From the NCBI RefSeq assembly GCF_000758625.1, contig NZ_CP009283.1, forward strand, positions 879,501 through 943,500: DNA of 64,000 nucleotides, written 5' to 3'. Position numbers and translations under genes: made by a program. The first letter of the stretch is position 1; the number at the start of each line of letters is the position of its first letter. The notes beneath the pieces were generated by a model. That model did no database searches and was not told the origin of the DNA. It saw nothing but the letters and a program-made list of their open reading frames with translations. Positions 53,925 to 56,236 of the stretch are shown piece by piece. The DNA is from Paenibacillus sp. FSL R7-0273 (GTDB lineage: Bacteria > Bacillota > Bacilli > Paenibacillales > Paenibacillaceae).

Positions 53925-54445
53925 GGAATAGGTAGTAGTACAGTAAGCTGATTCGGGGGCTGTAACGATTGTCAGAGCGGAGAGTGCTGCAAGCAGTCTG
54001 AGATAACCAGCATCGCCCCAGCGGAGAAGGCGCATTATAATGAGCGGATTTCCTTCAGAAGCGGAGCTGGTCTTAGCAAGCACAGCATACCGGTTGTTCA
54101 TTGTAATAGTTCTTTCGAGATGATGACCATTGCCGGGTTTTAGCTGTACGTGGTGTGAGTGTGACTCTCGCCAGCCTGCGGCTATATGAGCCTGCAAACA
54201 CTGCCGGACGGACCCAGGTGACGTTATCTGTCCATTTTCCGGCAGTGGGAGCTTCTAACGGACCCAGTTGCCGTTATTGCAACGAAAAGGCTGTGATTTC
54301 TGCGAAGTTGTGCTAAATAACGCCTGTGGTGTCCGTCCCTCGTATTTAAGAGTTTCTCTCACAAATACTCACTCATTCGCAGGATTTCAACGTACTGGAG
54401 TAACAGGGAGTGCGAGTTAATGGTGGGGGTTGAGCTGCCAGGAGC
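53925..54445. other. Gene-poor interval left of the IS element
   Basis: No gene could be supported in these 520 bp. They contain short purine-rich repeats after the kinase gene, the structured repeat pair at 54.2 kb, and AT-rich sequence up to the IS boundary. Confidence 0.6.
54199..54280. repeat. Hairpin and 50-bp tandem duplication
   Basis: CACTGCCGG (54199) and CCGGCAGTG (54239) form a 9-bp stem. ACGGACCCAG occurs at 54208 and 54258, exactly 50 bp apart, each followed by GTGACGTTAT or TTGCCGTTAT. The second copy is itself an inverted repeat, TAACGG-9 nt-CCGTTA. Confidence 0.65.
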
Positions 54446-54459
54446 GCTAGGGGCATGCA

Positions 54460-54709
54460 GGAACAAAAGCAGCGTATGACGTGCTTTAATCCAAGGATAT
54501 CCTGCATACTCCACTTGGCCCATGGAGGTTCACCCTCCCAGATCTCTACGGGTCTATGCCCTCACATTCCTTCGTTACACCTGTCCATGGCGTGGAGACC
54601 GATAGCGTTTAGTTAACGGGTCAAGGCCCTTCCGGACACACACACTCGGTTCTCTTATACATGCAATGTTGTAGAATCCTGCGAACAAGTCAATTCTCGT
54701 GGTTCCAAT
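54460..54709 (-). ncRNA. Candidate bridge/seek RNA region of the IS110-type element
   Basis: Downstream of the transposase stop lie about 250 non-coding bases with several potential stems, for example CTCCA-9 nt-TGGAG (54505-54523), GAGGTTCACCCTC (54525-54537) and the AGGATATCCT palindrome (54493-54502). IS1111-group members carry a guide RNA in the 3' non-coding end, while IS110-group members carry it in the 5' end. The long 3' segment and short 5' leader favour the first arrangement. Exact RNA ends and loops are not determined. Confidence 0.4.
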
Positions 54710-55987
54710 TTATGCGGCAACTGGGGCTGCAGATGCACTTTGGTATGATTCCCCTCGCTGGACCATACCGATCAGGATACGAGCCAGCTTGCCAATCAGT
54801 TTAAAAAGCGACGCCTGCTTCTTCATGCCCCGTTCCTGGTTGTGCGTATGCCACCGCTTAAAATCCGGGTTTTGCCGCACCAGATTCAGCATTCCCCAGT
54901 AGAAGTGCTTGCGGAGCATGCTGTCCCCCCGCTTGGAGAGCTTGATTTGCCCTTTGAACTTACCGGAGGTACACTCAGCCAGATTCAAACCGGCTCGTCG
55001 TAACAATTGCCTGCCGTGCGCATACAGGCGCAGGTCGCCCGCTGAGGCTAGAATGGCTGCCAGCGTCATCGTGCCAAGACCCGGGATACTTCGTAATTGC
55101 TCAGCCAAAGGAATTTCTTGCAGGATCCGCCCGAGGGCCTCCTCTATTTCACCGAGCATGACGGTTACCTGCTTGTAGGTTTGAATCAGGCGGTAGAGGT
55201 CTTGCCGTGCTTCTTCCGTTGCTCTCGTATCCCCAATACTGCGCGCTGCTGCTGCAAGTAACGCGCCTGCTTTCGCTCTGCCACTGACGCCGGAGGCCCG
55301 TTTCATCCCTTGCTTGCGCCAAAGTTTAATCACCTCATCCACACTCAGTCTCTTTAGATCACATGGCAAAGGACAAGCGTGGAGCGATGCTAGCGAACGA
55401 AGCACTGTCCAGTCCGGAAAGACTTGGCGGAATTCGGGGAAATAAAGGTCGATCCAGCGGACGATTCGATTGCCCAAGCTTATCGATTGCTTTACCCAGT
55501 ACTCTCTGTCACTCATGAGTGTCTTTAGACGCTCAAAAGTGGCTTCCTGAGTCACATAGTCTGTGTAGTAGCCGCGACTGACCACGTCTGCAATGACAAG
55601 CGCATCCTTGGGGTCATTCTTGGATGGGCTATTGTCCCGGTTTTCCTTATTACGGTGGGTGGTCACCGGGTTCACCAACACCACCTCAATCCCTTGTTGA
55701 AGCAGCCAATTGGCAAGGTTAAACCAGTAATGCCCCGTAGGTTCAAGTCCAATAAGAAGGGATGTTAGCCGGTGCTTGCTCTGGGCTTCTTTTACCCAAC
55801 GCAAAAGCTTCTCAAAGCCTTCTAGCGTATTGGGAAAAGACAGATGGCGGGGAGTAAGCGAACGCCCGCGAAAATCGGTCATCTGCGCGGCGTGCATATC
55901 CTTAGCAATGTCGATCCCAACCACTACATGCTGCACCGTAATTCGCTCAATACGTTGATTCGTTGTTTCGTTTCGGTTAAACTTCAT
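54710..55987 (-). CDS. IS110-family transposase (DEDD and Tnp_20 domains)
   Basis: The 425-aa protein has the RuvC-like DEDD residues in VVGIDIAKDMHA, LIGLEPTGHYW and NDPKDALVIADV, then a coiled middle region and a C-terminal Tnp_20 domain with IPGLGTMTLAAILASAGDLR and AECTSGKFKG, where the Ser is the likely covalent nucleophile. AGGAGG 8 nt before ATG 55987 is buried in a hairpin. It is complete and shows no frameshift. Confidence 0.93.
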   Translation of the reverse strand: MKFNRNETTNQRIERITVQHVVVGIDIAKDMHAAQMTDFRGRSLTPRHLSFPNTLEGFEKLLRWVKEAQSKHRLTSLLIGLEPTGHYWFNLANWLLQQGIEVVLVNPVTTHRNKENRDNSPSKNDPKDALVIADVVSRGYYTDYVTQEATFERLKTLMSDREYWVKQSISLGNRIVRWIDLYFPEFRQVFPDWTVLRSLASLHACPLPCDLKRLSVDEVIKLWRKQGMKRASGVSGRAKAGALLAAAARSIGDTRATEEARQDLYRLIQTYKQVTVMLGEIEEALGRILQEIPLAEQLRSIPGLGTMTLAAILASAGDLRLYAHGRQLLRRAGLNLAECTSGKFKGQIKLSKRGDSMLRKHFYWGMLNLVRQNPDFKRWHTHNQERGMKKQASLFKLIGKLARILIGMVQRGESYQSASAAPVAA

Positions 55988-55991
55988 AGTA

Positions 55992-56051
55992 AGCGCCTCC
56001 TGATGAGTTTTTGGGCTTCCGACCCCTTATACTCTCATCATACGAGGCGCT
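55992..56051 (-). promoter_or_regulatory. Hairpin hiding the transposase ribosome-binding site
   Basis: In the minus-strand transcript AGCGCCTC-GTA-TGATGAG pairs with CTCATCA-G-GAGGCGCT around a loop of about 26 nt. The AGGAGG site (55996-56001) is in the 3' arm, so the start of a transcript entering from outside the element would be masked. Such control against read-through expression is known in several IS families. Confidence 0.6.
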
Positions 56052-56174
56052 CTTGTTTTTGTCTAAGCCAATAACTTAGCGAATACAGGAATGTTTAGCT
56101 AACGCAAATACCGGCATTTCGAACAATAAGGTCGTCTCAGTCCGTTAGAGCTGCGCGGATTGATCTTCGGCAAC

Positions 56175-56222
56175 AAAAGGGCATCCTAACAGCCATATCC
56201 CGGCTGTTAGGATGCCCTTTTC
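56175..56222. terminator. Strong bidirectional terminator after the IF-3-like gene
   Basis: AAAGGGCATCCTAACAGCC and GGCTGTTAGGATGCCCTTT form a 19-bp stem with a 7-nt loop, flanked by A and T runs. Confidence 0.9.
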
Positions 56223-56236
56223 ACTTGCCCCGTTGC

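Follow-up and report, generated by a model that had tools for sequence, protein, structure and literature searches.

The RNA-guide principle is already known for elements of the IS110 family. In IS621, a bridge RNA encoded upstream of the transposase gene presents a target loop followed by a donor loop, each with two guide segments, of which the donor loop is the more conserved and the 5' guide side pairs with the bottom strand (PMC11208160, as far as consulted). For the IS1111 elements with seekRNA, ISEc11, ISPa11 and ISKpn4, the consulted text of PMC11187229 describes a downstream non-coding region, a top-strand guide located 5' of the bottom-strand guide (the IS110 order being the opposite), peak seekRNAs of 82-96 nt, no target duplication, and, for the group, transposases of 330-350 aa with subterminal inverted repeats; right-end bridge RNAs for IS1111 members are predicted in PMC11208160. 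A downstream non-coding region is also noted for some IS110-type elements (the 'green group' of Fig. 1b in PMC11187229), for which the consulted text gives no guides, and among the papers listed, preprints aside, none described guides for long-transposase IS110 elements with downstream RNA. Finally, ISPpu9 and ISPpu10 of Pseudomonas putida, likewise of the IS110 family, enter one fixed position of REP sequences and leave a 2-bp direct repeat (consulted parts of PMC8450116 and PMC1525189).

The element analyzed here resides in a window of 64,000 nt (the whole stretch of DNA considered) from Paenibacillus sp. FSL R7-0273. Comparative sequence analysis reveals its ends, precise insertion, a covarying structure, and covariation of putative guides with both the target and the left end. 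We estimate at roughly 90% the probability that the 3' non-coding region of this IS110-family element encodes a bridge/seek-type guide RNA, as proposed in the initial annotation. As one loop changes in step with the insertion site among relatives, the data point to a naturally reprogrammed RNA-guided insertion system.

The host genome (7.29 Mb, single contig) contains four copies that are letter-identical over the whole element, with flanks differing from copy to copy. The orthologous locus is empty in two related genomes, G095 and G063, reading ...AAGCTAACGGACACTACAGGCGTTATT (L097) and ...AAGTTAACGGACACCACAGGCGTTATT (L098), as compared to CTAA[ACATTCC...GAGGGA]CGGACACCACAGGCGTTATT at the filled site of the window. 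Copies and empty sites fix ends that take in the 3' segment, at 54336 and 56094, a shared A leaving 1 nt of uncertainty, and indicate a precise insertion where, apart from that A, target duplication is absent. The arrangement differs in this respect from ISPpu9 and ISPpu10, as do the hosts, which are Pseudomonas for the latter. The resulting element comprises a leader of 107 nt, a transposase of 425 aa and a 3' non-coding region of 374 nt. Accordingly, the boundaries first assigned, 54450..56060, and the attached lengths of about 250 bp for the 3' end and about 70 bp for the leader need correction, the earlier interval stopping 114 nt short and missing the 3' arm of stem P1 and the right end, while the 3' non-coding end indeed exceeds the leader in length. 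In one related locus, L045, about 25 nt of the right end stand in tandem directly after the first GAGGGA (GAGGGAGATAAACCCTTAAAACCGAGGGA), for which a faulty excision or a second event may be responsible. Outside the element, an inverted repeat at 56170-56228 of the window, GGGCATCCTAACAGCC...GGCTGTTAGGATGCCC between A and T runs, is probably a two-way terminator, and returned weak Rfam matches (ctRNA_p42d, 27 bits against a gathering score of 50).

Table 1. Coordinates of the element, its surroundings and its predicted RNA features within the window.
Feature	Position	Strand	Basis
Whole element, 1759 bp	54336..56094	-	identity of all four copies despite differing flanks; orthologous empty sites L097, L098
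Left target flank CTAA	56095..56098	-	empty orthologous sites; own copies
Right target flank CGGACACCACAGGCGTTATT, remainder of interrupted REP-like unit	54316..54335	-	empty sites
Neighbouring REP-like unit, intact, at 50 nt from the interrupted unit	56126..56147	-	pattern scan
Intact REP-like unit on the opposite side, inverted	54256..54277	+	pattern scan
Left end ACATTCCTGTA	56084..56094	-	conserved in kin
Right end GAGGGA	54336..54341	-	comparison of kin and own copies
Leader, with promoter-like TAGACA (56060-56065) and TATGAT (56037-56042)	55988..56094	-	promoter match within chance
Leader hairpin over ribosome-binding site, arms 56034-56051 and 55992-56007	55992..56051	-	aligned leaders
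Transposase, 425 aa, DEDD_Tnp_IS110 and Transposase_20	54710..55987	-	ORF and domain matches
3' non-coding region with guide RNA, 374 nt	54336..54709	-	alignment, consensus fold, covariation
P1, 5' arm	54675..54691	-	consensus fold, covariation, inverted-repeat scan
P1, 3' arm	54368..54386	-	consensus fold, covariation, inverted-repeat scan
Target-loop stem, 5' strand ACCGA	54646..54650	-	two-sided changes in 4 of 5 pairs
Right target guide GTGTGTCCG, complementary to CGGACAC	54633..54641	-	guide-flank comparison over loci
Target-loop hairpin AAGGGCCTTGACCCG	54617..54631	-	consensus fold, covariation
Left target guide TAACTAAACG	54606..54615	-	guide-flank comparison over loci
Target-loop stem, 3' strand TCGGT	54598..54602	-	covariation
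Donor-loop stem, 5' strand	54585..54597	-	covariation
Right donor guide AAGGAATGT, complementary to left end ACATTCCT	54564..54572	-	guide-end comparison over loci
Donor-loop hairpin GAGGGCATAGACCCG, motif shared with target-loop hairpin	54549..54563	-	consensus fold, covariation
Possible left donor guide TCTGGGAGGG, resembles right end GAGGGA	54533..54542	-	resemblance only; nearly invariant
Donor-loop stem, 3' strand	54509..54525	-	covariation

The gene product is, as originally noted, a complete DEDD/Tnp_20 transposase (Pfam DEDD_Tnp_IS110 matched over 1-155 of 155 positions and Transposase_20 over 2-84 of 87), scoring 199.8 bits against NCBIfam NF033542 (cut-off 140), and these DEDD (RuvC-like) and Transposase_20 domains place it in the broad IS110 family by sequence. 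Of the C-terminal motif G--P----SG, the SG is kept as GLNLAECTSG, with the P position being L in this clade. In the tree, the protein clusters with sequences from Sporomusa, Priestia, a phage record and, more loosely, Roseomonas (95/95), separate from the IS4321 branch; references are few, branches long and the deeper forks not settled, including the placement relative to the IS110 group, and three transposases with internal stops were excluded. IS4321 is the sole named IS1111 reference, because neither the plasmid search (at least 5000 records, all counted ones at least 90% identical) nor the class-level search (1 of 151 genomes) yielded broader ones.

Expression was addressed by a promoter scan, which found no separate promoter for the RNA, solely the leader match at chance level (1 found, 1.3 expected). 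By eye, the arms of the leader hairpin covary among 43 aligned leaders, for example GAGCTCCTC/GAGGAGCTC in L049 and L060. Since the promoter-like -10 element sits in the left arm, a read-through transcript rather than the element's own would hide the ribosome-binding site.

We then turned to the 3' region, which was suggested to be rich in structure; indeed, its minimum free energy of -124.9 kcal/mol (z -3.61) was not reached by any of 100 shuffles. RNAalifold applied to the 3' regions of 38 kin (alignment A1) returned a long closing stem, P1, connecting the beginning of the 3' region with the right end, a short stem, P2, a donor stem, and one GGG/CCC hairpin per loop. Once the target stem is included, pairing covers 96.3% of the 1777 alignment cells, and two-sided changes are seen in 22 of 47 pairs, compared to 10.8 in shuffles, none of 500 attaining the observed number. 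When the partners are slid, pairing falls to 26-46% and the two-sided changes to 3-6; this control flatters the structure because part of it came from the same alignment, and the two-sided changes are the stronger evidence. Such changes affect 7 of 16 pairs in the long helix of P1 and 2 of 5 in P2, while one pair of the target stem does not form in 21 of the 38 sequences. A helix of 264-269 with 324-329 in place of P2 pairs 92.5% of the cells, yet was rejected with zero two-sided changes. Folded by itself, the minimum-energy structure of the window RNA retains P1 and loses the consensus donor stem. The 10-bp palindrome of the initial annotation, AGGATATCCT at 54494-54503, is present but not conserved in the aligned kin. 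Provided that P1 bounds it, the modeled guide RNA would measure about 320 nt including the donor loop, as opposed to the far shorter peak seekRNAs of ISEc11, ISPa11 and ISKpn4. Rfam returned nothing inside the element at E <= 1, nor in six related loci at E <= 0.1. The 3' region of Aneurinibacillus tyrosinisolvens (L044, L066) spans 513 nt against the usual ~380, that is roughly 130 nt extra.

To compare loop segments with flanks and ends, 121 loci were scanned (L001-L081, L126-L165), of which 45 lacked a match to the core pattern, resulting in 76 rows; 6 without right flank and 11 without a usable left end were left out of the respective counts. The segment preceding AAGGGC in the first loop complements the right flank: GTGTCCG pairs with CGGACAC in L001, TGAGTCCG with CGGACTCA in L006, CGTTCCCC with GGGGAACG in L042, and AACCCTCAC with GTGAGGGTT in L058. 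The 40 distinct guides, which come from 70 loci and form 55 distinct guide-target pairs, match on average at 6.8 of 8 positions, as compared to a mean of 3.50 and a maximum of 4.475 over 20,000 shuffles of partners (0 as high as observed), with the better of two registers scored for own and shuffled pairs alike; the shuffles overstate independence because the kin are related. Five of the 40 guides match at 5 of 8 or fewer positions, and L059 fits in a third register only. Position by position, complementarity exceeds the shuffles mainly on one diagonal per register group, the expected one, which adjoins a nearly fixed C-G pair, with z of 4.0-8.2 for 7 positions (29 pairs) and 2.8-6.8 (24 pairs), and with some off-diagonal cells reaching up to z 4.0. 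Across the entire 3' region, the single best complement of the right flank falls within the guide for 32 of 47 distinct elements, the remaining 15 showing ties or a better match elsewhere.

On the other side, the segment following GACCCGT matches the left flank at 4.94 of 7 positions (18 distinct guides; shuffled 3.11, highest 4.22), with L013 and L071 reaching merely 2 of 7. Genome G007 harbors two element versions with different guides and correspondingly different targets, GTAGTTTCG with CGAAACTAC in L010, and CCAGTTTCG with CGAAACTGG in L130 and L131. Judged by sequence, the target-binding loop thus covaries with its target on both flanks.

Congruent with a bridge-type donor loop, AAGGAATGT of the second loop complements the left end ACATTCC(T). 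Complementarity extends over 7 of 7 nt in 35 of 65 loci and over the inner five in 64 of 65, the exception being L013, although many of the loci counted hold copies of one and the same element. Left ends reading ACAATCC are accompanied by GGATTGT in 5 of 5 loci, and ACCTTCC by GGAAGGT in two of three and GGAAGGC in the third, so that in sequence terms the donor-loop part for the left end holds for three end types. Loop segments hence match both target flanks and the left end. At the right end, GGGAG of the donor loop and GAGGGA are both nearly invariant, rendering covariation uninformative; no left donor guide match was found in the register of the left target guide, leaving the resemblance of GGGAG to GAGGGA.

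By sequence, the target belongs to a dispersed REP-like repeat, of which it forms one unit. This genome contains 99 exact matches to TAACGGAC-N10-TTAT (reversed control 1), with units in direct pairs about 50 nt apart that face inverted pairs with differing spacers, an arrangement similar to BIME/REPIN clusters. All four own copies have the CGGACACC version as right flank, which is found in only 4 of 99 intact units; a random choice of units would give this outcome with a probability of about 1.6e-5, a rough value because the right half departs from the exact pattern in two of the four interrupted units. The sequence of the predicted RNA accounts for the preference for this REP-like repeat.

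We also considered that insertion into CTAA-AC-GGAC might duplicate AC as a dinucleotide core. As a general rule it is not favoured, because the two orthologous empty sites read CTAACGGAC or TTAACGGAC, and because in G068, where a related element is present in two copies, CTAACGGGCAG occurs 28 times (reversed control 2) and CTAAACGGGCAG 0 times. For the window element an AC core is possible because its own genome has four sites CTAAACGGAC[T/A]C (reversed control pattern 8), all within REP-like units. Subgroups with AG at the ends are consistent alike with no duplication and with an AG core.

How, then, should the conserved 3' end be understood? That the protein alone reads the repeat, with the 3' structure serving as a regulatory or stabilising RNA, has a precedent in ISPpu9, also REP-inserted and equipped with two regulatory sRNAs (consulted part of PMC8450116), and a structured 3' end could stabilise an mRNA. 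However, such a role leaves unexplained the covariation of the loops with right flank, left flank and left end, as well as the matched guide and target changes of the two G007 versions, and we consider it highly improbable. A narrower alternative, that the transposase binds P1 and part of the conserved 3' end as inverted repeats in the DNA, with the two loops alone acting as RNA, deserves more weight, although we regard it as rather unlikely: no inverted repeat of the element is longer than P1, and the same paired changes would arise in an inverted DNA site, but P1 includes G-T/G-U type pairs (for instance 8 G-U at columns 77-404), unexpected for a DNA site, and one of its arms adjoins the transposase gene rather than an end.

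It is also improbable that the element is an ordinary IS1111-group member with seekRNA. The longer non-coding region lies downstream of the transposase gene as in that group, and the segment for the top strand sits 5' of that for the bottom strand (in transposase orientation, taken as the usage of the consulted text of PMC11187229), matching the IS1111 order. Nevertheless, subterminal inverted repeats of 7-17 bp went undetected in 41 of 42 distinct element ends (ungapped test, p <= 0.05), and a repeat finder detected no inverted pair linking both ends of the window element, while the IS4321 control gave an 11-bp perfect pair flanking the gene. Furthermore, the transposase, with its 425 aa, exceeds the IS1111 range described and falls outside the IS4321 branch in a tree of few references and long branches, and a search of this genome with IS4321 gave nothing at E <= 1e-20. 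The IS1111-like location put forward initially therefore holds, and the guide order is IS1111-like as well, but membership of the group finds no support. Neither does the narrow IS110 group, with non-coding RNA upstream of the transposase gene, accommodate the element, the guides being downstream. The element instead joins an IS110-length transposase to an IS1111-like RNA position and guide order. Set against the consulted description of IS621, a bridge-type RNA here shares the order of the loops, the stronger conservation of the donor loop and, if the possible left donor guide is counted, the two guide segments per loop, with position and strand assignment reversed, and adds the conserved stems P1 and P2 and one hairpin module per loop; the 'green group', compared by description only, is similar in combining a long IS110-type transposase with a downstream non-coding region.

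The initial annotation further supposed a system specific to one lineage, which does not hold, as the RNA core is present in Paenibacillus, Aneurinibacillus, Alicyclobacillus and Cohnella loci. A DNA search of the genus gave some match, often a fragment, in 49 of 100 genomes (own included), and a protein search returned 47 loci, mostly of Paenibacillus, but also of Aneurinibacillus, Alicyclobacillus, Cohnella, a Bacillus sp. and two MAGs. A diverged core form is found on a Sporomusa plasmid and a Priestia plasmid, and a sequence HMM recovers the core in 31 of 48 sequences (the 45 pattern-negative loci plus three plasmid or phage loci), one of which, L012, was part of the model. In a divergent subgroup kept out of the model definition (L029, L140-L148, L150, L155), the left guide is AAAGGAG in 9 of 12 members, others having TAGGAG, AAGGAG or, once, a version cut at GGAG, and the left flank ends in GGAG in 7 of 8 readable cases. 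At 9 of 12 right junctions an ATG follows 7-13 nt past the end GGGAGG (GGGGGG in L150). The right guides match only partly, and all of these are raw counts. From these sequences, the subgroup appears to be aimed at Shine-Dalgarno sequences by its guide, restoring one (GGGAGG) on the other side.

The left guide of the window element, CTAAACG, in turn differs from the untouched site, CTAACGG. Its extra bases equal the first two of the element (AC), and are GC or GA in subgroups starting with GC or GA; agreement extends to 60 of 65 loci, the exceptions being L013, L026 and the L014 group (by eye). Four sites CTAAACGGAC exist in the own genome, two of them followed by ACC. At the first of these two, the G087 ortholog (L182) reads CTAACGGACACC; at the second, two A's are present in G077, G063 and G087, and three in G095, which is without a DNA match to the element. 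The remaining two extra-A sites have CGGACTC instead, which does not correspond to the guide of this element. In L084 and L085 of the own genome the extra A is located at the insertion point, CTAAACGGACACC, while most orthologs (among L182, L192, L193, L195 and L201) have CTAACGGACACC. Although the case is small, these two units look like candidate excision scars, fitting the left guide perfectly; an emptied site would then read CTAAACGG rather than the restored CTAACGG.

Returning to the favored bridge/seek-type reading, a plausible sequence of events can be outlined by analogy with the reports on IS621 and ISEc11. The guide RNA would be transcribed and bound by the transposase, its first loop pairing with both strands of a REP-like unit, and the second reading the left end of the element, perhaps the right end as well. 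Together, transposase and RNA may then link CTAA|CGGACACC, the repeat unit, to a presumed excised circle, and strand exchange, with catalysis as assumed from those two elements, would place the element between CTAA and CGGACACC.

More tentatively, and at somewhat less than even odds, the observations can be combined into a third architecture of RNA-guided IS110 recombinases, having long transposases and a P1-closed 3' guide RNA with a hairpin module per loop, in which the guide order is IS1111-like and so follows RNA position, not transposase clade; excision in the window subgroup would leave an extra A (CTAA-A-CGGAC), and the related subgroup would be guided to Shine-Dalgarno sequences (AAAGGAG), inserting just before start codons with its right end supplying the new GGGAGG. 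Under this combined scheme, the left guide CTAAACG fits the scar better than the untouched site, and used sites would thus become better targets. Aggregated, candidate guides are now mapped for a clade of long IS110-family transposases with downstream RNA, where guide order and transposase group, so far reported together, come apart. Taken with their targets, the 40 distinct natural guides offer a ready pairing code, and this code and the combination of features are useful and partly unexpected.
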